Shown in pieces: positions 1 through 14,057 of a stretch of 50,836 bases of DNA. The notes under the pieces were generated by a model, which was not told the origin of the DNA, did no database searches, and saw only the letters and a program-made list of their open reading frames with translations. The DNA comes from an uncultured Porphyromonadaceae bacterium (GTDB lineage Bacteria > Bacteroidota > Bacteroidia > Bacteroidales > Muribaculaceae): assembly GCA_947174235.1 (NCBI GenBank), contig CAMWID010000017.1, forward strand, positions 1 through 50,836, in the 5' to 3' direction. The translations under genes were made by a program, and so were the position numbers. Positions within the stretch are counted from its first letter, which is position 1, and each line of letters opens with the position of its first letter.

Positions 1-25
1 GTATTTGAATTCTCGCATATGTCAT
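1..25 (-). CDS. possible start of a further island gene (partial)
   Basis: An ATG on the minus strand at 25..23 opens a frame that runs off the left edge, giving only eight codons (MTYARIQI). A second in-frame-independent ATG at 18..16 is also possible. An AGG lies six bases upstream, and the start is 24 bases after the stop of the GT14 fusion gene, the spacing expected of a next operon gene. Nothing can be said about function, and chance is a real alternative. Confidence 0.2.
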
Positions 26-49
26 CAAACCTCAATAATGTATCAATAA

Positions 50-1408
50 CTAAATCATCTTTTCAAGAAATAAAAAGCCACCAAAATTTTTATCCTCTGA
101 GATATTATTAAATTCTGTAGAAACAGATTTAATAACCTTGAATCCTGATTTTCTAAGAATTTTGATATATAACAATAAATTTTTAAATTCTGGACGATAC
201 CTTATTAATATATATCTTGATGAATTTCTTCCGATATTTGCCAACCAAATTTTCATACTATCATTATCTTTTGTAGGTGGATAAAACGCTATTATCATAT
301 CGATTGAATTATCAAACACAGCTGGAGAAAATAAATTAGCATAGCAACAATAATACCTGTTATTAAAAATAGGCAAAGATAAATTTTTAACATCCTGATA
401 CACATCAACTCCGTAGCATCTTATCCCGGCATCTTGTAGATATCTCACATATAATCCAGCTCCACAAGTTACATCACATATAGTCCTGACATTTTCAGAT
501 AGACTTAGCTTCAGAATTTGTCTTGCCAATTTAATATTGAAGGATATTGTATTATAATTAGATAACAATTCAAGAAGCTTTTTAGAATTATAGGAATTGA
601 ATTTGCGTGCGAAGATTGCATCCGATATTAATATTTCATAAATGTTATGATGTGTCAGAGTGAGAACAGCACCATTTTTCCATTTTATTAATCTCAAATT
701 GTTGTTTACTACAGAGGAAGAAAAATGAGAATTCATAACTACGGTATGAAAATATACTTCATCTGAACCGAATGTAAATCGAAGACTCCTAAGAAATTTT
801 CGGGATCTGCTATTTTGACTTATAATATATCTCCAACATTCTTTAGATAGGGACATCCAATTTGAACCTCCGTATAGACAAGGAAATTGATTTGGAATTT
901 TACGCTTAAATCCTATTTTTATCTGAATATTTGTGAAAAAATCAATTATCTTTTTTCCATACTTGCTATTATAATCAAACCAATCATTAAGTCTATAATA
1001 TTGGAACCTATCATATGTGCCGTTTTCCCATTTTTTAACAGGAATAAGATGATACTCCATAAATTGAGAACCATTGTTCATCTCGAAAAAATGATTTATA
1101 TATTCGGAATTTTTTATAGGTAAATCTTGTCCGCTTGCCAAATGGATATAATCATAATTACCGTTCTGTAAGGCGATTCTTACAAGACGCAATTGTGTAG
1201 TTATAATTTGTAAGCCTCCCCATCTCACATGCCGCCAACGGAAAAAATAGACTCGATTGCTTTGAACACTGAATAATCTGTCACACACCTTTTTATTTAT
1301 TCTTTTATCAAGGTGTACATAGAAATGATAATTTTGATCAAGAGTGTCAATTAATCTCATAAGTTGTTGCATATCTTGATGTGCAAGAACGATAACTGCA
1401 TGTGTCAT
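50..1408 (-). CDS. GT14 (core-2/I-branching type) glycosyltransferase fused to a methyltransferase-like domain
   Basis: This 452-residue protein has two parts. Residues 1 to about 270 resemble family 14 beta-glycosyltransferases: the N-terminal IVLAHQD and FYVHLDKR strands, the YIHLASGQDLPIK motif, GSNWMSLS, and SDEVYFHTVVM near the expected acidic active-site position. Such enzymes usually add GlcNAc or xylose to an acceptor sugar. Residues 309-452 carry a SAM-methyltransferase-like glycine motif (DVTCGAGLYVRYL) followed by GVDVYQD and a hydrophobic strand with AFYPP. The second domain is short, about 145 residues. No signal peptide or membrane segment is evident, so it probably acts in the cytoplasm. 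It is the last complete gene of the RiPP island, 77 bases after the preceding glycosyltransferase. The acceptor could be the peptide or a sugar on it; this is inferred from context only. Confidence 0.75.
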   Translation of the reverse strand: MTHAVIVLAHQDMQQLMRLIDTLDQNYHFYVHLDKRINKKVCDRLFSVQSNRVYFFRWRHVRWGGLQIITTQLRLVRIALQNGNYDYIHLASGQDLPIKNSEYINHFFEMNNGSQFMEYHLIPVKKWENGTYDRFQYYRLNDWFDYNSKYGKKIIDFFTNIQIKIGFKRKIPNQFPCLYGGSNWMSLSKECWRYIISQNSRSRKFLRSLRFTFGSDEVYFHTVVMNSHFSSSVVNNNLRLIKWKNGAVLTLTHHNIYEILISDAIFARKFNSYNSKKLLELLSNYNTISFNIKLARQILKLSLSENVRTICDVTCGAGLYVRYLQDAGIRCYGVDVYQDVKNLSLPIFNNRYYCCYANLFSPAVFDNSIDMIIAFYPPTKDNDSMKIWLANIGRNSSRYILIRYRPEFKNLLLYIKILRKSGFKVIKSVSTEFNNISEDKNFGGFLFLEKMI

Positions 1409-1485
1409 ATTAAATATTTTAGTTGCTGGATATATGATGCCAAAGTATTATCTTATGTGCAGAGCCAATCACAATATATAAGCTA

Positions 1486-2256
1486 TTATTTAATCCATTC
1501 CCATTCTGAAATATACATTTCAAGTTCTTTTGGAGTCATTGAACATACTTTCGCATATTCCTTCTTTGTTAGATAGGAAAGTTCATGGTCGACTGATCCG
1601 CTGTTGATACCTCTCGGATGATATAAATGATATAATTCAGAATCCACTCTCAAAGGGGGATGTCCCAAAATTTCCAGTCTCGCAAATCTCTCGGCATCTT
1701 CAGGACCCCATCCGCAGAAATATTCATTTTCCCATCCATATTTTCTATATAGTTCAACATCTACAATAAAGGCACCTCCCACAGAATGATACCCGCACAT
1801 AAGTGATTTAGGCTGAGGATAGCGTGTAAGCACATTAAGATCCAATGTATCACAAAATATTTCAGAATGCCACTGACCTATAGACCAAAAAATGCCATTA
1901 TATGGATATGACATAACTGCACCATTATTTTTGAGTAGATCTACAGCTTGTTCAATATTTGAAACCTCTCCTATGGCATCAGCATCCCACACTGCTGCAA
2001 ATTTCGTATCAATTATCCTAAACATTTCATTCACATATCGAGTGCGATGAAATATAGGATTACGGTCTTTTATGAAAATACATTTGCATCGATTGTTATC
2101 TGGTATACCTTTAATCCTAGATATGGAGTCTCCTTCCACTATAATGAATTTGGTGTCAGGAATGGTTGATAGATAATATCTTACAACCGATAATAGATTA
2201 CATAACCGATGATAGGAATCAATCCTCACAGGAATTATAAAAGTAATGTCTTTCAT
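1486..2256 (-). CDS. galactosyltransferase-like GT-A glycosyltransferase
   Basis: The start is taken at the ATG at 2256..2254, which overlaps the upstream stop as ATGA; a longer frame to 2307 exists but this overlap and the strand-one motif MKDITFIIPVR decide it. The 256-residue protein has a GT-A fold signature: an N-terminal IIPVR strand, a DAD metal-binding motif in AAVWDADAIG, and a C-terminal GGAFIVD...GWGPEDAERFARL block like the galactosyltransferase C-terminal domain (Glyco_transf_7C). The GWGxED block normally supplies acceptor or catalytic contacts. No membrane segment is visible. It is translationally coupled to the gene before it and sits among peptide-modification genes, which suggests an exporter-linked or maturation role. 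Donor and acceptor are unknown. Confidence 0.75.
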   Translation of the reverse strand: MKDITFIIPVRIDSYHRLCNLLSVVRYYLSTIPDTKFIIVEGDSISRIKGIPDNNRCKCIFIKDRNPIFHRTRYVNEMFRIIDTKFAAVWDADAIGEVSNIEQAVDLLKNNGAVMSYPYNGIFWSIGQWHSEIFCDTLDLNVLTRYPQPKSLMCGYHSVGGAFIVDVELYRKYGWENEYFCGWGPEDAERFARLEILGHPPLRVDSELYHLYHPRGINSGSVDHELSYLTKKEYAKVCSMTPKELEMYISEWEWIK

Positions 2257-3107
2257 CGTGAAATTTTTGAATGAGCTTTCCATATAAATGTTTCTATTGA
2301 CAAGCATTGATCTTCAATAAGTTTTGGAGAAGGCAATACATCATCTAAAGAACTGTCACATAGTATCCCGTATAAAAATAAAAAGAAAGCAGATGCCAGT
2401 TTTTCGCTTTCAGATAGGGTATTATCTATATTGGCAGAAGAAATCTTGTCTCTTACAATTATCCCTATATTGCGATTTACACTATCTTCCATTATTTCAA
2501 TATTATCAGAAAGCATTCTTATGATTGGCTTAACTTTAAAAGGATATACATTATATTGATCCATTTTCTGTAAGAAAAACAAAGCAGAATGCACAAATGA
2601 TTCAGATATACTGCAGCTGGGATAAAATTTATTTCCCGATTCGAATAATCGGTGTAGATAATTGATGTGGGATATAGCCCATTCTTGAATTTTATATCTT
2701 CCAAGATTGTCTTCATCCGATAACCATGTAGCCAATACAACTCCCTCCGCATCAATATGCCGTTCGTTGCGCGGGACATAAGTGGGACACGGATCCCAAA
2801 TTACATCAGGTCTAGAATAAAGACGTAGACATTCATCTTTTATTTTAGGAGAATCTTCCAAAATATCATTATTTAGAAGATAATTCAGTGCCCATATAAG
2901 CCATAATCTACCTTCGGAAAAAGAACGTTCCATAAATGGCGAGACTTTAACCAGAAGAGCTAATTCTTGTTGTACACTGTCAAGAACATGTTCATCTTCA
3001 TAGAGACATGCATACATTGAACTATAGACAAACGATGCAATGCGTTGGAATGCTATTCCCCTTTGAGACACAGGTATATATGGATCTATTGTAATATTTA
3101 TATTCAT
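2253..3107 (-). CDS. unrecognised helical protein, possibly a degenerate LanC-like subunit
   Basis: The start at 3107 makes an ATGA overlap with the previous stop; the longer frame from 3146 is unlikely. The 284-residue product is mostly alpha-helical. I do not recognise it with confidence. The stretch SEGRLWLIWALNYLLNN resembles the glycine-rich repeat helices of LanC-like alpha-toroid proteins found in RiPP loci, and SESFVHSALFFL could be a second repeat. The zinc ligands of true LanC cyclases (a Cys and a Cys-His pair) are not seen, so it would not be an active cyclase. It is coupled by 4-base overlaps on both sides, to the small membrane protein before and the glycosyltransferase after, so its level is tied to theirs. 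It could be a carrier or scaffold protein for modification. Function is open. Confidence 0.6.
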   Translation of the reverse strand: MNINITIDPYIPVSQRGIAFQRIASFVYSSMYACLYEDEHVLDSVQQELALLVKVSPFMERSFSEGRLWLIWALNYLLNNDILEDSPKIKDECLRLYSRPDVIWDPCPTYVPRNERHIDAEGVVLATWLSDEDNLGRYKIQEWAISHINYLHRLFESGNKFYPSCSISESFVHSALFFLQKMDQYNVYPFKVKPIIRMLSDNIEIMEDSVNRNIGIIVRDKISSANIDNTLSESEKLASAFFLFLYGILCDSSLDDVLPSPKLIEDQCLSIETFIWKAHSKISR

Positions 3108-3301
3108 GGTAACTTCATTATATAAATGAAATAAGACATAAAACACTCAAACCGATCATCCGGTGAAGGTAGTTTCAGAAGAATTATCACTGTAGAGACT
3201 AAGACTACTAACAAGACAATCCCACATACAAGTGTGAATCTTCGGGAGATCGGCTCCATTAGGTTTATTTCATTCTCTGTATTTGTTTTATATATTGGCA
3301 T
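3104..3301 (-). CDS. small single-helix membrane protein, resembling the anchor of an HlyD-type adaptor
   Basis: The ATG at 3301 lies one base after the exporter stop; a TTG start further upstream is less likely. The 65-residue protein has a charged N-terminus, ISRRF, then one strong hydrophobic helix (roughly residues 25-45) and a segment KLPSPDD. This arrangement is like the first 60 residues of HlyD-family adaptors that partner C39 exporters, where a cytoplasmic stub and one helix precede a KYPD-like turn. The remaining roughly 350 residues of an adaptor (barrel-sandwich and hairpin) are absent, and the frame ends in an ATGA overlap with the next gene. It is either a decayed adaptor whose N-terminus was kept for translational coupling, or a genuine small accessory membrane protein. 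Confidence 0.6.
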   Translation of the reverse strand: MPIYKTNTENEINLMEPISRRFTLVCGIVLLVVLVSTVIILLKLPSPDDRFECFMSYFIYIMKLP

Positions 3302-3302
3302 A

Positions 3303-5498
3303 TCAATCAATGATATTAAGTTGGTTTTTTACAAGTTCATGATATTTACCTTTTTTCTTATTGAGTTGTGTATGATTACCAATCTCAACAATTCTCCCCT
3401 TGTCTAATACCACAATCTGGTCTGCATTTTTAATAGTACTTAATCTGTGAGCTATAACTAAGACCGTCTTGTTCTTAAAAAAATTGGTTAGAGAAGAAGA
3501 GATCTTGCTTTCATTGATAGCGTCAAGAGAATTTGTTGCTTCATCAAAAAAAACAAATTCTGGATTTCTGTAGATTGCTCTAGCTATGAGGATTCTCTGT
3601 TTTTGCCCTTCGCTAATACCTTTGCCATTCCTGCCTATTACCGTATTGAATTTCAAAGGTTGCTTTTCGATGAAATCAAGAATATTGGCCATTCTTGCGG
3701 CTTCTATCAACCTAATATTGTCTATTTGAGTGTCGTCTGCGGCTATGTTTCGAGCTATTGATTCAGAAAAAATAATACCATTTTGCATTACAACACCACA
3801 ACGACTTCTCCACGATACCATATTGAGAGATTTCAAAGATATTCCATTAATTGAAATGCATCCTTCAAATGTGTCATAGAAGCCAAGAATTAGTTTCATT
3901 AAAGTTGTTTTCCCACTACCAGACAATCCCACGATAGCTGTGGTTTTACCGGCAGGTATGTCTAAAGATAAATTGTTGATTATTTTATTTTGCGAATATA
4001 TATCATATTTAAAAGAAAGATTCTCTATTTGTATACCTTTAGCTTTAGATAAATCTCCATGTAAATTGATGACACGCCCCTCGTCTTCATCTTTTTTAAA
4101 ATGGATTTCATTGATTCTGTCAAGAGATATTCTTACATCTTGAAGAGAGTTGATAAACCCGACAATTAACGAGACTGGAGCATTAAGCTGTCCTATGATA
4201 TATTGAATTGCAAGCATATCTCCAAATGATATTTTGCCGTTTATTACAGCTGTGGCAGATAAAACAGTGACAAAGACATTCTTTATTTCATTTATGAGCA
4301 CCTTTCCCGCATCTTGAATTTGGCTCAGTTTTAGGGATTTCAACTGTGTTGAAAATAAATTTTTTTGAGCCTCGTTCCATTGGCTACGACGGCGCAGCAT
4401 ACATCCTTGCAGTTTGATTTCTGGCAGAGATGTCATAAACTCAAATGTTATGTTATGATTAGTACATTTTTTCTCAAAATACTCGAAATCAAGAATCCTT
4501 CTTTTGTTTAGAAATATAACTATCCAAAAAGTATAGACTATGGTGCATATAAGATAAATGGTAAATATGTCAGGACTTAATACAAAGAGTGCTACACCGA
4601 AAGCAATAAAATTAAAAGTCGTGAATATTATACTAAGCGTATCATCGGTAAGAAAAGACTGAATTCTCATATGATCATTAGTCCGTTGCATGAGATCTCC
4701 AAGTAGTTTTGTTTCAAAAAAAGACATAGGAAGTTTTGTCAGTTTTGCGAGATATGAATTTATTAGGTCAAGATTAACCCTGACCGATATATGCAACATC
4801 AACCATCTGCGTATAAAATCAGATACATTCGAACCGATTACCATCATTACTTCTCCAAAAAGTATAAGCCATATTAATTGTATGTTCCGCTCCCCGATTC
4901 CCTTGTCAACAATTACTTTTGTTAAAAAAGGTACCACCATCTGCAAGACACTTCCTATTAGTAGGGCGATGCTGATCAATAAGAGATGAAGTTTGTATTT
5001 TGAGAAGAATCCTTTTATATGAGAAAAAGTATTAGTTCTTTTTTTCTCAGAGATATAGATCTCGTTGTCTTGCGTGTTTAAGGCAATAATTATACCTAAC
5101 CCTCTATCGGCAAATATGTCATTAGAGGCAATCCATTTTGATTTTAGTTCAGATTCAGAAACCGTATACTTTCCTTTCCCAGGATCAGCTATCTTATATT
5201 TATTAAACAAAGTTTTTCCATAATAAACTACAAAATGATTTTGATTCCAAAATAATATCGTAGGGCATGTGGTTTCTTTAAGTGATTTTATTGTCATCTT
5301 CATCGCTTTTGAGACAAGTCCAATTTTTTCTACGCCTTGTGAAATAGCCCACATGGAAACTCCACGGTTGCTTGCATGGCATAATGAATCCGCCTCATCC
5401 AATGATATTCTTATTCCATAATAATCTGCCACCATGCAAAGACATGCTGCTCCACATTGCATAGAATCGTGTTGTCGCACAAGTTTTATTCTCTTCAT
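3303..5498 (-). CDS. C39 peptidase-containing ABC transporter, double-glycine leader processing and export
   Basis: The 731-residue protein is a complete bacteriocin-type exporter. Residues 1-130 form the C39 cysteine protease, with Gln9, catalytic Cys15 in QCGAACL, His88 in NHFVVYY and Asp105 in ADPGKG. Five or six membrane helices follow (about 165-430). The C-terminal ATPase carries Walker A (GLSGSGKTT), the signature ISEGQKQR, Walker B (FVFFDEATNSLD) and the switch histidine in IAHRLST. It is expected to cut the peptide leader after Gly-Gly in the cytoplasm and pump the core out through the inner membrane. The obvious substrate is the precursor at 11117-11317, whose leader ends in LEEALGG. 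The gene starts nine bases after the DUF3405-like gene and is followed after one base by the small membrane protein. No full HlyD adaptor is present in the window. Confidence 0.93.
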   Translation of the reverse strand: MKRIKLVRQHDSMQCGAACLCMVADYYGIRISLDEADSLCHASNRGVSMWAISQGVEKIGLVSKAMKMTIKSLKETTCPTILFWNQNHFVVYYGKTLFNKYKIADPGKGKYTVSESELKSKWIASNDIFADRGLGIIIALNTQDNEIYISEKKRTNTFSHIKGFFSKYKLHLLLISIALLIGSVLQMVVPFLTKVIVDKGIGERNIQLIWLILFGEVMMVIGSNVSDFIRRWLMLHISVRVNLDLINSYLAKLTKLPMSFFETKLLGDLMQRTNDHMRIQSFLTDDTLSIIFTTFNFIAFGVALFVLSPDIFTIYLICTIVYTFWIVIFLNKRRILDFEYFEKKCTNHNITFEFMTSLPEIKLQGCMLRRRSQWNEAQKNLFSTQLKSLKLSQIQDAGKVLINEIKNVFVTVLSATAVINGKISFGDMLAIQYIIGQLNAPVSLIVGFINSLQDVRISLDRINEIHFKKDEDEGRVINLHGDLSKAKGIQIENLSFKYDIYSQNKIINNLSLDIPAGKTTAIVGLSGSGKTTLMKLILGFYDTFEGCISINGISLKSLNMVSWRSRCGVVMQNGIIFSESIARNIAADDTQIDNIRLIEAARMANILDFIEKQPLKFNTVIGRNGKGISEGQKQRILIARAIYRNPEFVFFDEATNSLDAINESKISSSLTNFFKNKTVLVIAHRLSTIKNADQIVVLDKGRIVEIGNHTQLNKKKGKYHELVKNQLNIID

Positions 5499-5507
5499 AT
5501 TCCTTAA

Positions 5508-6281
5508 TTATTTCACAGGATGACATAACAAATCTTTGTATCGTTTGATTTCATCTGACAAAAATACCGGTCTGTACCTCATTGATCCTTTGACAGGTTC
5601 GTAATGATTTATCGTATATACTTTGTTGATACATTCTTTACGAACAAACTCGCCTTCTCCGCCTAAGTCTTCCAATTTAAAACCGCTATAATACAATGAT
5701 GTCGGTATCAAGACTTCATGGTGACCATAAGATCCTTGTTTGAGGAATAAATCCAAAAATGATAATGCTCGTGCAGATATGCGATAAAATGGATTGAATG
5801 ATATTATACGTTCACAAGGATGTATTTTCAAAGAAGGTGAATAATACGCCCAAAGCCAATACCAATCCTGATGATACTTGCTACGACGAATGCAACAAGT
5901 CTGAAAATCTGCATCTGAGGAAGAAACGATATTAAGTAGATTTATCCAATTACCGGCATACTCTACATCGTATTCGATATTCCAATAAAATTTATATCCG
6001 GGGTTGTTCAAGTAAAACCAAAGCAAAATAAAGTGATTACTTCCCGGTACAATTTTGTCATTAAAGATTGGAGTATAGCCGATACCTTTTAAACTGTTCC
6101 AATCAAATACTATTATTGTAATATCTTTTGGAACAGTTCTTAAGGTATCATCGTTGTTAATATCAGTCAGAAAAAATATGTCGGCAAATCCATGAGCAGC
6201 ACGCATTATACGATAAAACCGATCAATAATCTTCTCTGATATCTTGTGGCTTATGAACAATATGGCGTTATCGCGCATCAT
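5508..6281 (-). CDS. DUF3405-like putative glycosyltransferase
   Basis: The start ATG at 6281..6279 overlaps the stop of the outer-membrane gene as ATGA. The 257-residue product has no signal peptide. The motif FYWNIEYDVEYAGNW is typical of the proteins grouped as DUF3405, where it follows a GT-A-like Rossmann half and probably includes the DxD-type acidic pair. Further features are a Trp/Tyr-rich centre (YWLWAYYS) and a conserved-looking HHEVLIPT segment. I read it as a glycosyltransferase acting inside the cell. Its tight coupling to the beta-barrel gene and its nine-base spacing from the exporter put it in the same transcript. Substrate unknown; assignment of the family is from memory of the motif. 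Confidence 0.55.
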   Translation of the reverse strand: MMRDNAILFISHKISEKIIDRFYRIMRAAHGFADIFFLTDINNDDTLRTVPKDITIIVFDWNSLKGIGYTPIFNDKIVPGSNHFILLWFYLNNPGYKFYWNIEYDVEYAGNWINLLNIVSSSDADFQTCCIRRSKYHQDWYWLWAYYSPSLKIHPCERIISFNPFYRISARALSFLDLFLKQGSYGHHEVLIPTSLYYSGFKLEDLGGEGEFVRKECINKVYTINHYEPVKGSMRYRPVFLSDEIKRYKDLLCHPVK

Positions 6282-9217
6282 TTCCTATTTCCCGGGCTTT
6301 TATTAAATTTCCATTGTATATGGAACATGAAATAACTCGGCAGAACAGTTCTGACCATCTCGGTGCGTGCCTGCGCATTGATAGTATACGACACGTTGCT
6401 GAGATTTCTGAGAATATCATATCCATCTGCCATAAAAAGAATTTTACCTTTGAATGCCTTATACGTAAGTCTGGCGTTCCAGACATAATTGTCTGTGTTG
6501 AGAGCGTTATCAGTAAAACCTCGACGGTTGTAGATTGAGAAATCCGTTGACAGCTGAAAATTGAACGGCAGATTTAATAACGTTCCTACTCCGGTCTGGA
6601 AAGTCCATGTGTCTTGTGAAGTGAATCCCGGCATAGGGGAGGAATAATTCCTATAGCCGCCGTCAAATCTTGCATAGACGGTCTGTGACCCGATATTGGC
6701 TGACAGATAAAGATTCTCATGAAGATCCCATGAGTTTACTTTGCTGCGCGAGAGTATGGGGCTATCAGTGCCTATCAGATCCACGCTCATTATCCTGCTT
6801 CCGTTCAAAGTGTTGCGCAGGCTTAGCATTCTGGTCAACGGTATGTTTGCTTCAGTTGACAGATTGAATGACCGGTTGCCGTCAACATTGTAATAACTTG
6901 AGGTCCTGACTCCTGTCTTTGTATCATAGACATACCCCATACCGATCGCGTCAAACATCTCCCGGTATTCAAAATTTATGGAAAGTGACCTGTTGGCTCC
7001 GAATGAGAACCAACTCCTTAAAGCTGCTGACAATTCCATGGATTTTTTAAGATCCGGATTGCCTTTCCGTATATTCAGCGGATCAGTATCATCGGTTATA
7101 TCCACCATGTTAAGAAGATCCGGTAGAAATCCTCTCACGGTGCCATGAAATCCTATATTGCTGTTTTTGGTTTCATGGCTCGCGGCAAGGTATATCCCGT
7201 CAAGATATACGTCGTTATGCAAGGAATTTGTATCATAATTTCCGCGCATATAATTTATCCTTCGGCGGGCAAATCTGACCGGTACCTCACATACGAGATC
7301 CCATTTTCCGTCATACTTCTCGATTCTCGGCGTAATCAGATGATAATTCTCTGTCCGCTTGCTGACATAGCTGTTGGCGGGATCTATAGTACCCGCATAT
7401 TCGGAATAAGAAGGAAGAGTGCCGAAGATGAGTTCATCCACGTTGTCCGCCATGTCGAGACGGTAAAGATCCGAAGTATTTCTTATAAATTTATGTTCAA
7501 AATTATATGATATTGAATAATATGTAGATCTGTTGAAATAATGTAGGTATCTTGCTTTTGCACTCAACCGGGAATTGAAATCGGGATGGTTCTTATAATA
7601 TCGGTCAGCCGATTCCGACGGCATCGGATTATCTCCGAAATTAACATTGAACCGTTCAAACCTGTCATCCTTACGCTTACTGTAATTCCCATCTACAGTG
7701 ACAGTAAGTTGATCTGATGTTCCGGGAATCGCGAGCGTATTTACAGTGTTTACATTTGCCGCGAGCCTGTATCCTTTAAGCTTGGACATCTCGATATTCC
7801 GGTTGATAAGATATTTCAATATTTTGTCGTGGTTTCCGTTGTAGATATCCCCGATAATATCAGGGTTGACATCTTCCACTTTCTCGCTGAATGTAGCCGC
7901 CGCGTCTTCATAATTCCTGTTCCATCGTTCGTAAGACCAATCAGGCACTATCTGCAGACCATATCCTTTGAGATTTTTGAATTTCATTATATATCTGTTT
8001 TCAATTTTGAAAACGCGGCTGCGGGATTTAGAGAAGGAGTTGTCATAGGTATCATTACCTGCGAGGAAATTGGTTCTGTAAGTGTCAGTACCGTCGTTGT
8101 CTCTTATATTGGATGCATCCGCGCCGGCGTAGAAATACCATTTTGTGTCTTTGGAATCGAGACCATATTTTACGCCTCCTTGCTCCACCCGTTTTGTCCC
8201 GGTAGGCATTGTTTCCGGTCTCCAGTCTGTGTCCTGCTGAGGTGACTGGCTTGAATTGACGTTGTTGAAGTTGGCATACAGCGCAAATCGACTTAGCGGA
8301 GTGAAGGTGCCGGCAAAAATTCTTGCAATATAACGGTCGTGTGTGCCATAGCCCCCCTCAAGGTTGCCCATGAGACCTACCATAAATTCCTTTTTAAGTT
8401 TTACATCCATCACCAACATCATGTCATCAAGCTTACGCCCTGCCACTTCGCTCTCAAAACCGTATTTCTCATATACCTTGATGTCTTTTACAGTATATGC
8501 CCCAAGGTTATCGAGCATGATTTGATTGTTGCCGTCAAAAAAATCCTTGCCGTCAAGCAGAAGGCTTTGTACTTTCTTTCCGGCAACGAATATCTCTCCA
8601 TCCTGAGTGAGTTTCACATCCGGAAGCTGGCGTATCAACACGTCGAGCATACTCCCTTCCGGTAGGTTAAACGCGTCGGCATTGTAGACAATGGTGTCTC
8701 CTTTGTTGTAAAACTTGATCTTTGTCGCATTTACCACCACTTCACTTAGATTCTTGGATTCCGGTTCCGGCGAAAGGCAAATTTTACCTAAATCTACAAA
8801 GAATTTACCTTTACTTAATTTTTCCTTATCCAGATCCATAAATAAGGTATCGTATCCGGGATAATCTATAGAAAGTATATATTTCTCTACATTTTTAGAG
8901 ATCTCCATGACAAAAGTTGGAAAATATGATATTTCTCCATTGTTGTTGAGAGATGATTCCGCCGTAGTGGTAAGCACGAGTGTGCTGTCGGAGGCGTTGA
9001 ACAGCTTTACAGTCGCCCCTATGAGAGGATCTTGCATTGGAAGTCCGAATACTCCTCCTCTTACCTCTACCGTTTCATCAGCAAGTGCCGGAACACTGTA
9101 AAACAGCAATATGAACAATATGCTTTTGAAAAAGGATAGAATTTTGTCAGAGCCGGATATCTGTTTCCTGATTCCGGCATTTTTGGATCTTGCAGATGCG
9201 GTCATGATGTAGGTCAT
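6278..9217 (-). CDS. outer-membrane beta-barrel protein with plug, TonB-receptor-like (OMP_b-brl_3 type)
   Basis: The 979-residue protein has a long basic N-terminus and a signal segment ending near PALA (residue 46). A beta-sandwich carboxypeptidase-regulatory-like domain follows (about 50-150, with IGATVKLFNASDSTLVLTT), then a plug-like domain (about 160-280, with PDVKLTQDGEIFVAGKKV and LLLDGKDFF) and a large aromatic-rich beta-barrel to the C-terminus. It matches the Bacteroidota outer-membrane beta-barrel family related to TonB-dependent receptors but is not a SusC. In this island it may let the mature peptide out through the outer membrane, or take something up. Its base composition is richer in G and C than the island genes around it. 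It overlaps the next gene by four bases. An ATG five codons in is an alternative start. Confidence 0.85.
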   Translation of the reverse strand: MTYIMTASARSKNAGIRKQISGSDKILSFFKSILFILLFYSVPALADETVEVRGGVFGLPMQDPLIGATVKLFNASDSTLVLTTTAESSLNNNGEISYFPTFVMEISKNVEKYILSIDYPGYDTLFMDLDKEKLSKGKFFVDLGKICLSPEPESKNLSEVVVNATKIKFYNKGDTIVYNADAFNLPEGSMLDVLIRQLPDVKLTQDGEIFVAGKKVQSLLLDGKDFFDGNNQIMLDNLGAYTVKDIKVYEKYGFESEVAGRKLDDMMLVMDVKLKKEFMVGLMGNLEGGYGTHDRYIARIFAGTFTPLSRFALYANFNNVNSSQSPQQDTDWRPETMPTGTKRVEQGGVKYGLDSKDTKWYFYAGADASNIRDNDGTDTYRTNFLAGNDTYDNSFSKSRSRVFKIENRYIMKFKNLKGYGLQIVPDWSYERWNRNYEDAAATFSEKVEDVNPDIIGDIYNGNHDKILKYLINRNIEMSKLKGYRLAANVNTVNTLAIPGTSDQLTVTVDGNYSKRKDDRFERFNVNFGDNPMPSESADRYYKNHPDFNSRLSAKARYLHYFNRSTYYSISYNFEHKFIRNTSDLYRLDMADNVDELIFGTLPSYSEYAGTIDPANSYVSKRTENYHLITPRIEKYDGKWDLVCEVPVRFARRRINYMRGNYDTNSLHNDVYLDGIYLAASHETKNSNIGFHGTVRGFLPDLLNMVDITDDTDPLNIRKGNPDLKKSMELSAALRSWFSFGANRSLSINFEYREMFDAIGMGYVYDTKTGVRTSSYYNVDGNRSFNLSTEANIPLTRMLSLRNTLNGSRIMSVDLIGTDSPILSRSKVNSWDLHENLYLSANIGSQTVYARFDGGYRNYSSPMPGFTSQDTWTFQTGVGTLLNLPFNFQLSTDFSIYNRRGFTDNALNTDNYVWNARLTYKAFKGKILFMADGYDILRNLSNVSYTINAQARTEMVRTVLPSYFMFHIQWKFNKSPGNRK

Positions 9218-9377
9218 ATATTTTAAATCGTTTATGTTTATTATATATAGGAGGTTAGTTTATTTACCAGTGAGCGTGGAATCTGTTTTATAGTAACAAA
9301 TATCCAATTTCTCAACGTATGATAAGCGATAGAATGGATAAATATTATAAAATTAATTCGTCGCCAATAGAGTTTTA

Positions 9378-10694
9378 TTAGCTTCCTTGTGAATTTTTAT
9401 CAGACGTACGCATCTTCTCTCTATATTTATAGTGTATCCATAAAAAATCGTCCGGCCTACTCTTGAAAAGTACACAAGGATTATTTGTCTTCCGTCCAGT
9501 ATCTTGTTCCTTGAGCCTAATATACGGGCATCCACCTGAACAAATGGGAAGGAATTTACAGGTGTCGCATGTTGGATCTGTAAGATGATCTGCATCAGTA
9601 AGATATTGAAATAGCAATCTCTCGTTGATGCGTTCGCCAAATACGGAACCATAAACCTTAGAAGAATCTCCAACATCATTCCAACATTTATATAGTTCTC
9701 CACTAGGACCAATTACAGCCGATGCTGGATTTCTAACTGAACATGATGATATATTACTGTCTGGATAAAACATCGGAATTATAACTCCATGTTCTTCATA
9801 TAACCTTATCAAGAAATTCACCATGTCAGATGTTTTATACAGGCACCCGTTGCAATCCTGTTCTGAAATATCTGTCACAAAACCCGGATAAACGTTCACA
9901 TTTGGCAGGTTCATTTTGCCAATGTAATTGTAAAGCCAGAGGAATTCACTTTCATTACTTCTGTCAATATTTACTCGTATTGCTATTCTTATATTTGGAT
10001 TCAATGTCTTAGTTAACAGAATGTTGTCTATAATTTTATGGAAAGTAGGTTTTCCTCCATGTAGACATCTACGTTTATTATGTGTCTTTGGGCTGCCGTC
10101 CAAAGTTATTTGTAAAGATGATATTTTAAGAGCATCGAGCCTACGGATTTTGTCTTCAGAAAGGAGGTATCCGTTCGTGATCATTCCGGAATTGTATTTT
10201 ATATCAAGATTCAATATTTTCTCAGTCAGAGTATGAATCCTGTTAAAAGCGAGAAGAGGTTCGCCACCAAACCATGTGACAAACAAATGTTTGACAAGTG
10301 GAAAATTACGTATATATTCTACAACTCCATTCTCTGTTTTATCATCCATAAAAACGGGAGTATGTTGTTTCTCAAAGCAATATGAACATGAAAAATTGCA
10401 TGCTAAAGTAGGGTTTATTGTCAATGAAAGTAAATATGGGTTAAACCTACTAGACATAACATAATACTTTATTTTTTTGATCTCTGTATCGTCATCCATG
10501 TCAACAGCCATCATTTTTTTCAATATGCCATAGGTCTCTTCGTCAAGTTCCTTAACATCAGATCCGCAATTTGCGGCTTCGTTAAGCATATCATAAAGAT
10601 CATTTTCTATCAATGCAAAACTGTTGGAAAGTGCATTATATAAAAACGATTTGTTTTCTCTTCTAAAGAAATGATTATATCGAGACAGTTTCAT
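9378..10694 (-). CDS. radical SAM/SPASM peptide maturase
   Basis: The 438-residue protein carries the radical SAM motif Cys99-x3-Cys103-x2-Cys106 (ACNFSCSYCFEK), which binds the 4Fe-4S cluster that splits S-adenosylmethionine, followed by WFGGEPLL and a TIM-barrel. The C-terminal third has a SPASM-type cysteine set (QDCNGCLY, SSCSV, KCWND, CDTCKFLPICSGGCPY) for auxiliary clusters. The first 90 residues resemble the leader-recognition region common in peptide maturases (YNHFF...LYNALSNSFALIENDLYDML). Such enzymes make Cys-to-carbon thioethers or carbon-carbon links in peptides. The five-cysteine precursor 422 bases upstream on the same strand is the probable substrate. A 33-nt perfect palindrome sits 25 bases before the ATG. 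Which crosslink is made cannot be told from sequence. Confidence 0.93.
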   Translation of the reverse strand: MKLSRYNHFFRRENKSFLYNALSNSFALIENDLYDMLNEAANCGSDVKELDEETYGILKKMMAVDMDDDTEIKKIKYYVMSSRFNPYLLSLTINPTLACNFSCSYCFEKQHTPVFMDDKTENGVVEYIRNFPLVKHLFVTWFGGEPLLAFNRIHTLTEKILNLDIKYNSGMITNGYLLSEDKIRRLDALKISSLQITLDGSPKTHNKRRCLHGGKPTFHKIIDNILLTKTLNPNIRIAIRVNIDRSNESEFLWLYNYIGKMNLPNVNVYPGFVTDISEQDCNGCLYKTSDMVNFLIRLYEEHGVIIPMFYPDSNISSCSVRNPASAVIGPSGELYKCWNDVGDSSKVYGSVFGERINERLLFQYLTDADHLTDPTCDTCKFLPICSGGCPYIRLKEQDTGRKTNNPCVLFKSRPDDFLWIHYKYREKMRTSDKNSQGS

Positions 10695-10719
10695 ACATAA
10701 GAGTAATACTATTTTGTGG

Positions 10720-10752
10720 TTCTATGATTATCTATTATAGATAATCATAGAA
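10720..10752. repeat. 33-nt perfect palindrome upstream of the maturase gene
   Basis: Positions 10720-10735 and 10737-10752 are exact inverted complements around base 10736 (half-site core ATGATTATCT). It lies 25-58 bases before the maturase ATG and six bases after the short frame ending at 10759. Its perfect symmetry and near-absence of a loop suit an operator for a dimeric regulator better than a terminator, but an RNA hairpin is possible. One half-site (AGATAATC on plus) recurs at 12613-12620 just before the GT4 gene. It falls in the 422-base gap 10695-11116, which otherwise holds only the short frame and the 19-bp hairpin. Confidence 0.75.
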
Positions 10753-10758
10753 ATATTG

Positions 10759-10875
10759 TCAGGAAGTCACGTGGTATTGAGTATTTGTACAAAAAAATAA
10801 ACAATCTTTTTGCATCATTATATTTTCACAAGAATTTTGAAGCATAATTTTATCTGTCTCATACTCATTAAACAT
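10759..10875 (-). CDS. short cysteine-containing open reading frame between precursor and maturase
   Basis: This frame encodes 38 residues beginning MFNEYETDKI and ending TQYHVTS, with three cysteines. Its ATG is preceded by GGAGGAA four bases upstream, a rare strong Shine-Dalgarno for this genome. An in-frame ATG at 10902 would give 47 residues. It has no Gly-Gly leader and no hydrophobic signal, so it does not look like a second exporter substrate. It ends six bases before the palindrome. It could be a small accessory peptide or a chance frame in AT-rich DNA. Confidence 0.3.
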   Translation of the reverse strand: MFNEYETDKIMLQNSCENIMMQKDCLFFCTNTQYHVTS

Positions 10876-11054
10876 CAGATTCCTCCAGAACACAAGTTCC
10901 ATAACTATTTATTTTCTTCACTCATTGAAGAACGAGACACAATCTGACACAAAATTAATATACGACAAAATAATTTGCTCGCAATTTATAATCTCATCCC
11001 CCTGTAGGGTTGTCAAGAAAAATTTAGATATATTTATGTAGAAATACCGACAAT

Positions 11055-11096
11055 ATATTATTTCATGCGTCAGCTTTCTGACGCATGAAATAATAT
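11055..11096 (-). terminator. 19-bp perfect hairpin just after the precursor gene
   Basis: Arms 11055-11073 and 11078-11096 are exact inverted complements with a four-base loop. The hairpin begins 20 bases after the precursor stop in the direction of transcription. It lacks a clear run of U on either side, so it may be a partial terminator or an RNA 3'-end stabiliser that lets precursor mRNA exceed maturase mRNA. The stem includes GCGTCAG, which makes it much more stable than the surrounding AT-rich DNA. Confidence 0.75.
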
Positions 11097-11116
11097 GTTC
11101 TGCCAAAAAAATTCAT

Positions 11117-11317
11117 TCAGAAAGATTTGGTTGAACATTTATATATTCCGCAGTAGTCAACATTGCCACCACATATGCCACTCCTATAAGTGTTACAAAT
11201 ATCGTTGTCAAAAGAACCGCAGTTCCATCCTCCCAGAGCCTCTTCCAATTCCTGGCGGAATATATCTTGATTTCCGTCTGAAGGAGCCTCGATCAATTGA
11301 ATTTTTTTTAATTTCAT
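11117..11317 (-). CDS. double-glycine-leader RiPP precursor peptide with five-cysteine core
   Basis: The 66-residue peptide starts MKLKKIQLIEAPS and has an acidic amphipathic leader ending in LEEALGG (Gly29-Gly30), the classic C39 cleavage site. The 36-residue core has cysteines at 33, 41, 49, 56 and 61, spaced x7, x7, x6 and x4, with many Gly, Asn, Asp and aromatic residues and Ser/Thr at 35, 43, 46, 62, 63 and 65. A basic MKLKKIQL-type start with a GG leader matches the Bacteroidota natural-product precursor family that occurs beside radical SAM/SPASM enzymes (I recall a TIGRFAM for it; not searched). It is predicted to be modified by the maturase, cut by the C39 exporter, and exported. It has a candidate promoter of its own at 11357-11389 and a hairpin just after its stop. 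Confidence 0.9.
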   Translation of the reverse strand: MKLKKIQLIEAPSDGNQDIFRQELEEALGGWNCGSFDNDICNTYRSGICGGNVDYCGIYKCSTKSF

Positions 11318-11356
11318 ATTTTTTTGATTTTAGAAAATAATTTTATTAAAACTAAA

Positions 11357-11389
11357 TAAATCTTATTCAATTCTCATAAAATTTGTCAA
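11357..11389 (-). promoter_or_regulatory. candidate promoter of the precursor gene
   Basis: On the minus strand TTGACA (11389..11384) is followed after 18 bases by TAAGATTTA (11365..11357), close to the Bacteroidota TTTG and TAnnTTTG boxes with one mismatch in the downstream box. It would give a leader of about 35 bases. It is the best match in the AT-rich gap 11318-11514, which contains no other gene. Confidence 0.4.
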
Positions 11390-11514
11390 TAAGTATATCT
11401 ATCTAACTATATTTGATAACTTATATTATATTGATAATGTGAATATATGTTAAATTGGTAAATATGATTACCGAATTAAAAAAAATATATACAACTTATT
11501 TTTGATGGTAAATG

Positions 11515-12606
11515 CTATCTGCGTATAAGATCCAAATAAGATTTCTCCATTTGTTCTATCTTGTAAAAAAACTCATAAAAATGACGTGCATTTATTCCAG
11601 TCATATTGAGATTAGGAGAGATTTGACAAACCCTTGATATAATATGAGAATTGTTTTCATTAAACATGTTGTTTAACCCGTGCCCCCCATAAATGAATAT
11701 TTCTTTTGAATGCATCATTGATTCTATCCCTACATAACTACATTGTTCGTGTCTTGAAGGAATAAACACGGCATCACTGTGTCTAAGAGCATCATGTATT
11801 TTTTTATGAGAAAGAATACCCCCATTTATAATAAATTCGGTCAAGTGCTCAGGTATAAAGTTTTCAAACTCATTGCTTCCAACGCATATGACACGCATAG
11901 CTTTCTCATAATCTTTAATGTGATTACCTAACTCAATAACTCTGTCCCACCCTTTTGAAAAAGTCGGACGTCCAATAAAAATTAAGTTATAAAATGATCT
12001 ATCAAACATCTTCGTAACATCCGGATTCTTAGTTGAATAAGGGGTATCAATTTTATAAAAATCTATTGATCCATTACGAATGAGATGCAGTTTATTCAAA
12101 GGTATGCCATAAACTTCATGCACAATATCAATTGTATCCTCACATAGACATACAACATCGTCACATAATTCAAATGCTTTTAAGGTATCAATTGTGGAAT
12201 AATACAACAAATTTTTAAAAGGTTTTTCAAAAGAGGAAAATCCCGTCTCGGATTCTTTTATGAAGGCTTCGCAATCTCCATTAAAAAATGTCATCCACGG
12301 AAGATCATGAACAATGTGTACGATTCGGCTGTTTGGTAAAACTGATTTGATCATTTCAAGCATAAAATATGCCGGCCAGATGTTGGATAATATTGTAATA
12401 CTAGACGAGTCTTTTATTTCTTTTGCCAAGCTACATATTTTTTTTTTAAGATTTGAATCTATATTAATAGTTATGCATGACATATTTTTATAGTTTCTGA
12501 GGACATTGGTAAGTTGATTAGCGAAAGTAGAAACACCATCTATTTTACACCCATTCAAAAGCATGCATACTGTGTATTTCTTTGTATTTTCTCTTTTTGC
12601 TTTCAT
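11515..12606 (-). CDS. GT4-like glycosyltransferase
   Basis: The 363-residue protein has the two-domain GT-B layout of glycosyltransferase family 4. The N-terminal half has VCMLLNGCKIDGVSTFANQL, where the Gly-Val region binds the acceptor side, and HIVHDLPW. The second half has FIGRPTFSKGWDRVIEL, VGSNEFENF and PSRHEQCSYVGIESM, the last being the usual E-x7-E-like sugar-nucleotide region in a diverged form. No signal or membrane helix is present, so it works in the cytoplasm. It is the first island gene in transcription order, 197 bases before the precursor, which has its own promoter candidate. A glycosyltransferase beside a radical SAM precursor hints at peptide glycosylation. The acceptor could also be a surface glycan. 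Diverged sequence leaves the sugar unknown. Confidence 0.8.
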   Translation of the reverse strand: MKAKRENTKKYTVCMLLNGCKIDGVSTFANQLTNVLRNYKNMSCITINIDSNLKKKICSLAKEIKDSSSITILSNIWPAYFMLEMIKSVLPNSRIVHIVHDLPWMTFFNGDCEAFIKESETGFSSFEKPFKNLLYYSTIDTLKAFELCDDVVCLCEDTIDIVHEVYGIPLNKLHLIRNGSIDFYKIDTPYSTKNPDVTKMFDRSFYNLIFIGRPTFSKGWDRVIELGNHIKDYEKAMRVICVGSNEFENFIPEHLTEFIINGGILSHKKIHDALRHSDAVFIPSRHEQCSYVGIESMMHSKEIFIYGGHGLNNMFNENNSHIISRVCQISPNLNMTGINARHFYEFFYKIEQMEKSYLDLIRR

Positions 12607-12790
12607 AATTTCAGATAATCAAATTCATATAATCAATACTTTGGTTATTTTTTTAAGTTTGTTAACGGCTACAAGGAATCAATTGCTTAATCCGTTAAAA
12701 ATCTGATACTTATCATGGAAATTTAATATTAAAAATAGGTCAAATCGCAGATTTTCAGTAACTTCATAGTTATTCAACGACTCTAAAGTT

Positions 12791-13716
12791 ATGCTGATAT
12801 TCGAACTGCTTGACCAATATGAGGGCATCTGCCGGAGATCTTTCTTCGGTTGCGCTACAAAGTTAAACAAAACTTTCAAGACAAACATCATCGAGGTACT
12901 GATTTTAATCATGTGTATATCGCGAAAGATAAACTTTCTTTAGTTTGGACGATACGGACGACGTGGAGAGCAGCACTATATATGTAGACATTCCGTAAGG
13001 ATTTCGACTGACTGAGCTTCAATATGAACCTCGCAGCCGACCGTTTTCAATATGGCATGAAACGTCTGGCTATCGCCATAGATCAAGTTATGTCTCCAAA
13101 GCGGGCAAAAAGACAGATCATATCGTTCGCTTCTGGTCGGGATGCGCCTCTGCTGTCAAACATGGACTTTAGATACTCAGTATCCCCGTAGTCGATGCTG
13201 ACATCAAAGACGCGATGATGCTCCGTACCGTTCAGACTTTCAATTGAAGAAAGGAATATGACTTTTAGTCGGTGGTATGTGTCGGTATTGAAAAAATATA
13301 GAACATATTTACCGAAAATCACTTCATTGCTCGTTGCCGATACTGCTTTCCCCGTATTGCCGTTTGTCGCGAGACTGGAAGAAATCGGTTTCTCCTTGAT
13401 AAGTCGTCTGGCTCCAACGCTGTACTGTATTACATATATGAATGTCCGCGCACCGGCAAAAGGGGACGCCCCAAGACCAAAGACGGCAAGATTGACTTCT
13501 CCAATCTTGACAAAAGCAGGATGACGCGGATTGATATCGCGCCCGAGGAAGACGAAACCTTTGAACTTGCGGCATGGAGCAAGTTTCTTAAACAGAAAAT
13601 ACGACTTGTAATCCATTATCTGCCCAGTGGCGGACACTATTTTGTATTTTTCGACCGATATCCCTGTCTGTGGCAAAGATGTCTATGGCATTTACCGGAC
13701 ACGGTTTCGGATCTAG
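12791..13716 (+). pseudogene. decayed IS4-like DDE transposase
   Basis: Fragments of one transposase can be read in order across all three plus frames: MLIFELLDQYEGICRR, KINFL(stop)FGRYGRRGEQHY, DFD(stop)LSFNMNLAADRF, AGKKTDHIVRFWSGCASAV, then VADTAFPVLPFVARLEEIGF, and finally YFSTDIPVCGKDVYGIYRTRF. The last block is the Y-x2-R part of the IS4-type YREK motif and stops at a TAG just before the expected Glu. At least three internal stops and several frameshifts are visible, so the element is dead. I see no clean terminal inverted repeats. It flanks the RiPP island, suggesting past mobility of this border. The minus-strand frames in this stretch are shadows. Confidence 0.8.
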
Positions 13717-13744
13717 TTCTGTTTCCTTGACGGTCACCGGTCCA

Positions 13745-13970
13745 TTGGACTGCTGGACTGTCAGGCGCGCGATGAAAAGGCTTTGGATTTTCCTACAATG
13801 CCTCGCTTAAGACGAAGCCGCACTACGAGAAATGGACGATAGACGGTATCCCCAAGCGTATCAGCTATCATCGCTTCCGAGACACTTTCTGCACTCTTCA
13901 GTTCGCTGCCGGGACAGACTTCTATACAGTCGGCAAGCTGCTTGACCATACCAACGTAACCACTTCCTAA
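13745..13970 (+). pseudogene. C-terminal remnant of a tyrosine recombinase/integrase
   Basis: A plus-strand frame reads YHRFRDTFCTLQFAAGTDFY followed by TVGKLLDHTNVTTS and a stop at 13968. This is the H-x-x-R box and the LLgHxnvxTT block of phage or conjugative-transposon integrases; in the intact family a catalytic Tyr would follow a few residues later and is missing. Only about 75 residues remain and the upstream part cannot be read in a single frame. It abuts the dead transposase directly, so the two elements were probably joined by a deletion. Confidence 0.7.
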
Positions 13971-14016
13971 ATAGGCTTCCTAAATATATGCAAAATTGGT
14001 GGATTCTTGTATCAAA

Positions 14017-14048
14017 TTTGCTGGAATGCAAAAAAAATGTTAACTTTG
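14017..14048 (+). promoter_or_regulatory. consensus Bacteroidota promoter before the UPF0371 gene
   Basis: TTTG at 14017-14020, a 20-base spacer, then TAACTTTG at 14041-14048 match both boxes of the primary-sigma consensus exactly. Transcription should start about four bases after the downstream box, near 14052, only about six bases before the ATG at 14058. Confidence 0.8.
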
Positions 14049-14057
14049 CAATCCGTT

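Follow-up and report, generated by a model that had tools for sequence, protein, structure and literature searches.

The left end of contig CAMWID010000017.1 from an uncultured Porphyromonadaceae bacterium (Muribaculaceae in GTDB; assembly GCA_947174235.1) carries several genes for putative glycosyltransferases (GTs) next to the genes of a putative modified ribosomal peptide, and this raises the question of whether the sugar enzymes act on the peptide or only travel with its genes. The window, i.e. the whole stretch of DNA analysed, is the entire contig (C17; 50,836 nt) of an assembly of 3.44 Mb in 138 contigs with 96.6% completeness. According to the ORF list of the window, ten open reading frames (ORFs), all located on the minus strand, span positions 12606 to 50. 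In this order, they encode a GT4-type protein, the precursor peptide, a radical S-adenosylmethionine (SAM)/SPASM enzyme, an outer-membrane barrel, a DUF3405 protein, a C39-ABC exporter, a small ORF product, a LanC-like protein, a GT7-like protein and a GT14-methyltransferase fusion (Table 1). Judging from gene content, intact motifs, conserved linkage and island borders, which are established, we consider it reasonably probable that the island is responsible for one glycosylated, perhaps methylated, radical SAM-crosslinked and exported peptide. The ten genes probably belong together, the sugar enzymes with the peptide genes, because related gene sets keep several sugar enzymes beside the peptide genes.

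The genes are closely packed. ATGA overlaps of 4 nt were found at three of the nine junctions (barrel/DUF3405, small ORF/LanC-like and LanC-like/GT7, assuming ATG starts at 3301, 3107 and 2256), and the remaining gaps are 1, 9, 77, 160, 197 and 422 nt, i.e. five of the nine junctions are coupled or nearly coupled. An earlier note on this DNA had described the genes as lying on one strand and mostly translationally coupled, and both statements agree with these data. The precursor, radical SAM/SPASM enzyme, C39 exporter and barrel listed in it were all identified from the ORF list and from Pfam and SPASM matches over the cutoff. Among its four GT-like proteins, GT4, GT7 and GT14 were retained, but DUF3405 is a domain of unknown function and its reading as a GT is unproven. 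In addition, its inventory had overlooked the LanC-like protein and the methyltransferase-like domain of the GT14 protein. No Rfam matches were found across positions 1-14100.

Table 1. Positions of the island genes and associated elements in the window.
Feature	Position	Strand	Evidence and remarks
GT4-type glycosyltransferase	11515-12606	-	TIGR04157 129.5 bits (cutoff 400); EX7E present (HEQCSYVGIE)
Precursor peptide	11117-11317	-	66 aa: 30-aa leader ending GG, 36-aa core, 5 Cys
Hairpin, attenuator or terminator candidate	11052-11099	-	22-nt arms (95% complementary); directly after the precursor
Radical SAM/SPASM peptide maturase	9378-10694	-	438 aa; Radical_SAM 52.4 bits (cutoff 29.5); TIGR04085 54 (cutoff 27)
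Outer-membrane beta-barrel	6278-9217	-	979 aa; PF14905 (OMP_b-brl_3) 44.6 bits (cutoff 27)
DUF3405 protein	5508-6281	-	PF11885 26.8 bits (cutoff 25), E 2.9e-6
C39 peptidase-ABC exporter (PCAT)	3303-5498	-	PF03412 103.4 bits (cutoff 22); PF00005 (ABC_tran) 100.9 (cutoff 25); PF00664 over cutoff
Small ORF	3104-3301	-	65 aa (ATG) or 68 aa (TTG); one hydrophobic stretch by eye; begins 1 nt past C39
LanC-like protein	2253-3107	-	284 aa; by homology to the L090 protein (20% identity over 196 aa, blastp E 1e-5)
GT7/beta-4-galactosyltransferase-like protein	1486-2256	-	PF02709 (Glyco_transf_7C) 22.2 bits, E 1.1e-4 (cutoff 23)
GT14 (Branch/xylosyltransferase-like) protein fused to a SAM-methyltransferase-like domain	50-1408	-	PF02485 94.1 bits (cutoff 23.4)
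Tyrosine recombinase remnant, near the right border	13776-13967	+	PF00589 20.9 bits, E 3.4e-4 (cutoff 27.1)

To evaluate the linkage of the sugar enzymes, loci with related radical SAM genes were compared, using a simple ORF caller for the fetched stretches. A contig scan with the radical SAM pair yielded 17 loci, 13 of them at 41-46% identity and 4 at 25-32%. A similar gene row was found in a Prevotella metagenome-assembled genome (MAG; loci L090/L101) and comprises a precursor, the radical SAM gene, a split barrel, a second precursor, C39, GT4, LanC-like, GT7 and GT14-methyltransferase genes. Its GT4, GT7 and GT14-methyltransferase fusion proteins are 30%, 50% and 36% identical to those of the window; only the position of GT4 differs and DUF3405 is missing. 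The Hoylesella timonensis row (L083/L104) contains GT4 (25%), precursor, radical SAM, barrel, half of a LanC-like gene, C39, membrane fusion protein (MFP), LanC-like and GT7 (40%) genes. Locus L089 of another Prevotella MAG ends inside the barrel gene, and a contig end of the same genome (L103) carries C39, GT4, LanC-like, GT7 and GT14 genes, several of them frame-broken, with a second set elsewhere (L102: barrel, LanC-like, GT7, C39 and an MFP stub). The split of the barrel gene in one Prevotella MAG (L101:12270-15119) and the broken GT4, GT7 and GT14 genes in the other (L103) may be due to assembly error or decay. In the radical SAM tree, the window and the two Prevotella MAGs (L090 and the partial L089) form one branch (96/95).

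The GT7 and GT14 genes were also searched for across the order, regardless of context, with profiles built from sequences near radical SAM or C39 genes (A2 for GT7, A3 for GT14). At E 1e-12, the GT7 profile had matches in 9 of the 393 genomes of the order. A LanC-like and/or C39 gene was located near GT7 in six of the eight genomes other than the window's own (L118 and L120-L124, where L122 is a short contig with a LanC-like gene only), or in seven if L119, with a C39-peptidase-domain protein and a GG peptide, is counted; L125, a fragment, has neither. The GT14 profile matched 23 of 393 genomes at E 1e-25, and 22 of the 29 places besides the window's own were examined. C39, LanC-like or radical SAM genes accompanied four of the five GT14 places with at least 200 bits (L179 twice, L180 and L181; not L182), a line that was drawn after seeing the result and that counts to this extent against the association. 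Below 200 bits, such a peptide context was found in 1 of 17 places (L187); one of these places lies near the stretch edge, several are on short contigs, and similarity to C39 confined to the ATPase (L184, L186) was disregarded. These results suggest that the GT14 branch nearest to that of the island is peptide-linked and that GT14 proteins at large are not. TIGR04157 was also tried as a linkage marker and rejected, as all 295 genomes and all 14 controls gave matches, each of them below the cutoff. Locus L106, found through this model, contains GT4, LanC-like, C39 and MFP genes.

A number of observations weigh against a fixed association of the GTs with the peptide genes. Radical SAM relatives at E 1e-30 or better were found in 14 of 149 other genomes, all of the same genus, at 16 places besides the window's own; 15 of these were extended (L023-L037), and no GT homologs were located in any of these more distant loci, although the C39 exporter was present in 8 of the 15. 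Seven of the 13 loci with 41-46% identity (L081, L082, L084-L088) have neither a GT homolog nor a cytidylyltransferase in the stretches covered, which extend over 10 kb on both sides in L084 and L087. A GT7 relative was found in only 3 of 10 whole genomes with a related radical SAM locus. The tree pairs L083, with GT4 and GT7, with L082, which has no such genes, and shuffling showed that clustering of the GT-bearing rows on the tree is no rarer than 28 in 500. LanC-like, GT7 and C39 genes are also present in L118, L120, L121 and L123 with no homolog of the window radical SAM gene in the stretch covered. The four peptide-linked GT14 places come from two genomes, both of the genus g24, and two of these places share one locus. 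Finally, an MFP is absent from the island or reduced. Judging from this distribution, the GTs are accessory to the radical SAM locus. Thus, the proposal of the earlier note that the GTs belong with the radical SAM precursor holds in part: it agrees with the linkage seen in Prevotella and Hoylesella, with the gene surroundings of GT7 relatives and of close GT14 relatives and with the lack of capsule genes around the island, but the GTs are accessory, and GT7 is found in the minority of genomes given above.

Some of these observations could also indicate that the GTs act on another target (such as the barrel, a lipid or, for self-protection, the cell surface) and merely accompany the peptide genes. 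GT14 relatives often occur outside peptide loci, as seen in the weaker set, and Heminiphilus L084 keeps the precursor, radical SAM, barrel and C39 genes with no homologs of the window GTs within 10 kb. On the other hand, the Prevotella MAG row L101 keeps the same order of LanC-like, GT7 and GT14 genes, no flippase, polymerase or lipid-carrier transferase was found among the families matched in the island, and the flanks are not polysaccharide genes. We regard another target as unlikely, and the peptide as the more probable target of the GTs.

Other genes in the related loci are also worth mentioning. In a sister branch, a cytidylyltransferase gene is located directly before the precursor (L078:1482-2114, L079:1564-2223, L080:1257-1952), with PseF as the best model, below the cutoff. 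In L080 and L088, the barrel is followed by a protein of 433-437 aa that weakly resembles a glycosyltransferase or a surface-carbohydrate protein; these genes hint at a CMP-sugar route. One of the 10 whole genomes contains an extra weak GT7 match in a locus rich in glycosyltransferase-like ORFs. The window's genome itself has at least three further radical SAM genes of this general type (contigs C34, C131 and C60; L038-L040), and those on C34 and C60 are each followed by an ORF of 690-718 aa; no homologs of the window GTs were found around these three genes in the stretches fetched.

The earlier note had named a capsule or O-antigen locus without conserved linkage to the precursor as the finding that would speak against its proposal, and such a locus was not found. 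The last 55 bases of contig C112 are identical to window positions 1-55, and C112 contains a GntR gene together with, as judged by eye, an ABC pair, signal peptidase II (lspA) and isoleucyl-tRNA synthetase (ileS) genes. In the same-genus genome G022, the site is empty: the GntR gene (79% identical) is followed by 333 bp and then by the DUF1846 gene (95% identical). GntR and DUF1846 are separated in the window's genome by the island plus about 1.4 kb containing the recombinase remnant. The join of C112 to C17 is based on the 55-base overlap and this single empty site, which was seen in one of the four relatives fetched; G033 has DUF1846 close to the ABC genes but arranged differently, and the stretches of G004 and G024 do not include DUF1846. 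Since the island is flanked by GntR and DUF1846 and the site is empty in G022, the island looks whole and acquired. The capsule or O-antigen locus was rejected, as the left-end continuation contig carries other genes and the site is empty in G022; the genes adjoining the island (GntR, DUF1846, the ABC genes, lspA and ileS) include no capsule or O-antigen genes. The GC content is 29-44% in the 13 1-kb segments of positions 1-13000 versus 45-54% in 34 of the 37 later ones. An ORF at 13083-13676 is transposase-like by eye and has no Pfam matches.

The presence of mobile-element remnants at the border, together with a possible MFP stub and an orphan DUF3405 gene, might be taken as a sign of a decaying island without a product. 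The small ORF sits where some relatives have an MFP, a recombinase remnant is present, and the related genes are broken in L103, but all ten ORFs are open, the gene overlaps are retained and the enzyme motifs are intact. Decay is considered very improbable.

In the radical SAM enzyme, the CX3CX2C motif (C99, C103, C106) and the SPASM cysteines do not vary across an alignment of 12 sequences, one from the window and 11 from relatives, and, together with the adjacent Cys-rich precursor with a double-glycine (GG) leader, these are the features expected of a SPASM-type maturase of ribosomally synthesized and post-translationally modified peptides (RiPPs). The nearest NCBIfam models were Clo7bot, TIGR04463 and CefB, yet the scores of 243.5, 217.1 and 206.1 bits were far below the cutoffs of 600, 525 and 600, and no maturase model exceeded its cutoff among the best 25 of 70 families. 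We know of no glycosyltransferases linked to maturases of these three types. The precursor adjoins the radical SAM gene, and its leader, ending in LGG (double-glycine type), and core cysteines are conserved. In an alignment with 12 precursor ORFs from related radical SAM loci, three core cysteines are invariant and the fourth is present in 12 of 13 sequences, making the conserved cysteines likely crosslink sites. No NCBIfam family matched the precursor at E values up to 1, so TIGR04149 is unmatched.

The C-x2-[YF] motif is a recurrent one in the precursor cores of the window, L089, L090, L084 and L085. It bears on a chemical alternative that is compatible with a glycosylated, crosslinked peptide: the radical SAM enzyme would form aromatic crosslinks (Cys-x2-Tyr/Phe) or epimerisations, not Cys thioethers, and the cysteines would form extracellular disulfides. 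Such a chemistry is consistent with the recurrent motif and with the lack of an above-cutoff maturase model of known chemistry in the comparison above. However, two of the three best models (TIGR04463 and CefB) have Cys-rich targets, judging from their names, and the core cysteines are better conserved than the aromatics; we hold this alternative to be rather doubtful.

Two strong inverted repeats were found between the precursor and the radical SAM gene. The stability of the hairpin was -32.3 kcal/mol over 11030-11116 (z -6.85), and the second inverted repeat, a perfect one, is located at 10720-10752. With these repeats, the dose of the precursor may be set higher than that of its enzymes.

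The GT4 protein scored at best 24.5 bits with the Pfam GT4/GT1 models, under the cutoff of 28.5. The GT7 start at 2256 was picked from the overlap and the homologs, and the ORF extends to 2307; the DxD and GWGPED motifs and two His residues are invariant across four aligned sequences, and the sole match in the PDB search was beta4GalT7, which was not significant (E 0.56). The best PDB match of the GT14 protein was xylosyltransferase 1 (E 5e-12), and the Glu of PAESFFHTV aligns with the Glu of GSDEVYFHTV, which we take to be the catalytic base of the GT14 family. Its C-terminal methyltransferase-like part scored 19.5 bits, under the cutoff of 27, in the window; the same fusion is present in the L090 homolog, with 41.4 bits for PF13489 (cutoff 27). 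The DUF3405 protein is a possible glycosyltransferase; its predicted structure had a mean predicted local distance difference test (pLDDT) value of 34, its homologs at E 1e-8 were restricted to the window's own genome (1 of 247 family genomes), and a contig pattern scan was also empty.

As for the acceptor, position 35 is occupied by Ser in the four precursors that make up the window-Prevotella branch and in that of L083, and by Thr, Lys, Arg or His elsewhere; Ser35, which lies in a C-x-S-[YF] motif, is a candidate sugar site. The core Ser-Gly was first considered as a xylosylation signal but is no more than a guess, since it is present in L082, where no GT homolog was seen, and absent from both L090 precursors.

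The C39-ABC exporter and the double-glycine leader together correspond to what is expected of a peptide exported by a peptidase-containing transporter. Among the 13 loci with 41-46% identity, 11 have a barrel homolog after the radical SAM gene, the exceptions being L086 and L087. The small ORF, for which no Pfam or NCBIfam matches over the cutoff were found, is perhaps a remnant or stub of an MFP.

The product of the gene at 2253-3107 had no Pfam matches of its own. The related proteins of L090, one of two of L083 and L179 matched PF05147 with 23.6, 23.6 and 25.4 bits, respectively (cutoff 23.2). The predicted model of the window protein is all-helical (pLDDT 54), with a best PDB match at E 0.32, and homologs at E 1e-5 in the family were found in the window's own genome only (1 of 247). 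The CH dipeptide is missing in this protein and in 11 of 12 relatives; in the L179 protein, it is located at residue 41. Bacteroidales RiPP clusters with LanC-like proteins having lost the LanC motifs are described in the relevant passages of PMC10352776. The data weakly point to a LanC-like protein without zinc ligands, and such a protein is likelier to bind or present the peptide than to make lanthionine. Catalytic lanthionine synthesis was rejected, as the zinc ligands are missing and no LanB/LanM dehydratase family was found for the ten proteins among the matches listed.

For the order of the steps, the type of crosslink, the sugars and their sites, the methylation, the roles of the barrel and LanC-like protein and the biological activity, the following is proposed. 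The leader of a single ribosomal peptide would be bound, and the radical SAM/SPASM enzyme would crosslink its Cys-rich core with C-x2-aromatic motifs. The peptide would then be glycosylated stepwise in the cytoplasm by GT4, GT7 and GT14, perhaps by DUF3405 too, with possible methylation by the domain that is fused to GT14. Cleavage after GG30 and export of the peptide would be the task of the C39 exporter, with the barrel as the outer-membrane partner, and the zinc-less LanC-like protein would take part in peptide binding or presentation. The peptide probably has a role in competition or signalling.

A more far-reaching alternative is that GT14, GT7, the TIGR04157-type GT4, the zinc-less LanC-like protein and C39 form a transferable glyco-module acting on GG-leader peptides that are unrelated to each other, in combination with two different radical SAM lineages or with no radical SAM enzyme at all. 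In the branch of the island, GT14 would xylosylate a core Ser (Ser35 or the Ser-Gly before the third Cys) and GT7 would add galactose, like in the animal proteoglycan linker. If true, bacteria would use this module to build the equivalent of a proteoglycan linker on a crosslinked peptide; we treat this as a long shot.

A comparison with known systems indicated that the rarity claimed in the earlier note, which knew of no characterised pathway with so many sugar enzymes around one radical SAM precursor, was too strong in view of mycofactocin (PMC7491314, as far as its relevant passages go) and of the GG-Bacteroidales loci L179 and L180 with several GTs and LanC-like genes. Locus L179 matched TIGR04148 with 454 bits (cutoff 300), TIGR04150 with 265.8 (250), TIGR04149 with 46.1 (25) and TIGR04157 barely, with 400.6 (400); L180 was over the cutoff for TIGR04148 and TIGR04149. 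Both contain GT14, GT4 and LanC-like genes, and L179 also contains C39 and MFP genes, while the L180 stretch has no C39; both L179 GT14 proteins are GT14-GT2 fusions. The island resembles this system, as represented by L179, in its GG leader, radical SAM/SPASM enzyme, TIGR04157-type GT4, GT14, LanC-like protein and C39. It differs in having a radical SAM enzyme of another subfamily, no pseudo-radical SAM protein, and GT7 and a GT14-methyltransferase fusion versus GT14-GT2. For the window maturase, the best 25 of 70 families do not include TIGR04148 (the 25th scores 46.8 bits), and the pseudo-radical SAM model TIGR04150 was not found for the ten island proteins among the matches listed. Membership of the island in the GG-Bacteroidales system was rejected, as TIGR04149, TIGR04148 and TIGR04150 fail and TIGR04157 remains far below its cutoff. 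TIGR04149 clusters with paired radical SAM proteins are mentioned in passages of PMC4573289, one of these clusters having a bacteriocin exporter. Judging from these loci, GT-bearing radical SAM loci of Bacteroidales are a kind already known in silico.

The biosynthetic gene clusters BGC3-5 (PMC10352776) are similar in their radical SAM genes and LanC-like proteins without catalytic motifs, and BGC3 contains a glycosyltransferase; they differ in having pseudo-radical SAM proteins, BGC3 and BGC5 have no C39 exporter, and no product is reported in section 3.2 of that paper. Mft models (MftC-type radical SAM and MftF) were not found for the ten island proteins among the matches listed. The mycofactocin maturase is also a radical SAM enzyme. 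According to the relevant part of PMC7491314, mycofactocin is a characterised ribosomal peptide product with a long glycan and a methylated sugar, and it is in combining a ribosomal peptide with an oligosaccharide and methylated sugar that it resembles the product proposed for the island. In contrast to the island, with its several transferases and expected C39 export, it is a small redox cofactor with one glycosyltransferase, MftF. A characterised glycosylated radical SAM peptide of Bacteroidales was not found in the open-licence literature, outside of which most subscription papers and preprints lie.

The radical SAM subfamily, the precursor, the lack of a pseudo-radical SAM protein, GT7 and the methyltransferase fusion set the island apart from the GG-Bacteroidales kind. 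The island and its relatives form a compact gene set in which two named strains can be compared, Hoylesella timonensis S9-PR14, which has GT4 and GT7, and Heminiphilus faecis AM35, which lacks them. It makes testable whether exported Bacteroidales radical SAM peptides are glycopeptides, which function a LanC-like protein without zinc ligands has and whether several maturases share one glyco-module. Two further combinations were seen in the order-wide loci. A single ORF in L187 (4819-6585) fuses LanC-like and radical SAM domains, with a GT2-like gene (by eye) and a GT14 gene nearby. In L124, a truncated TIGR04148-type radical SAM piece (11645-12061; 157 bits, cutoff 300) is located in the same stretch as GT7, GT4, C39 and MFP genes.

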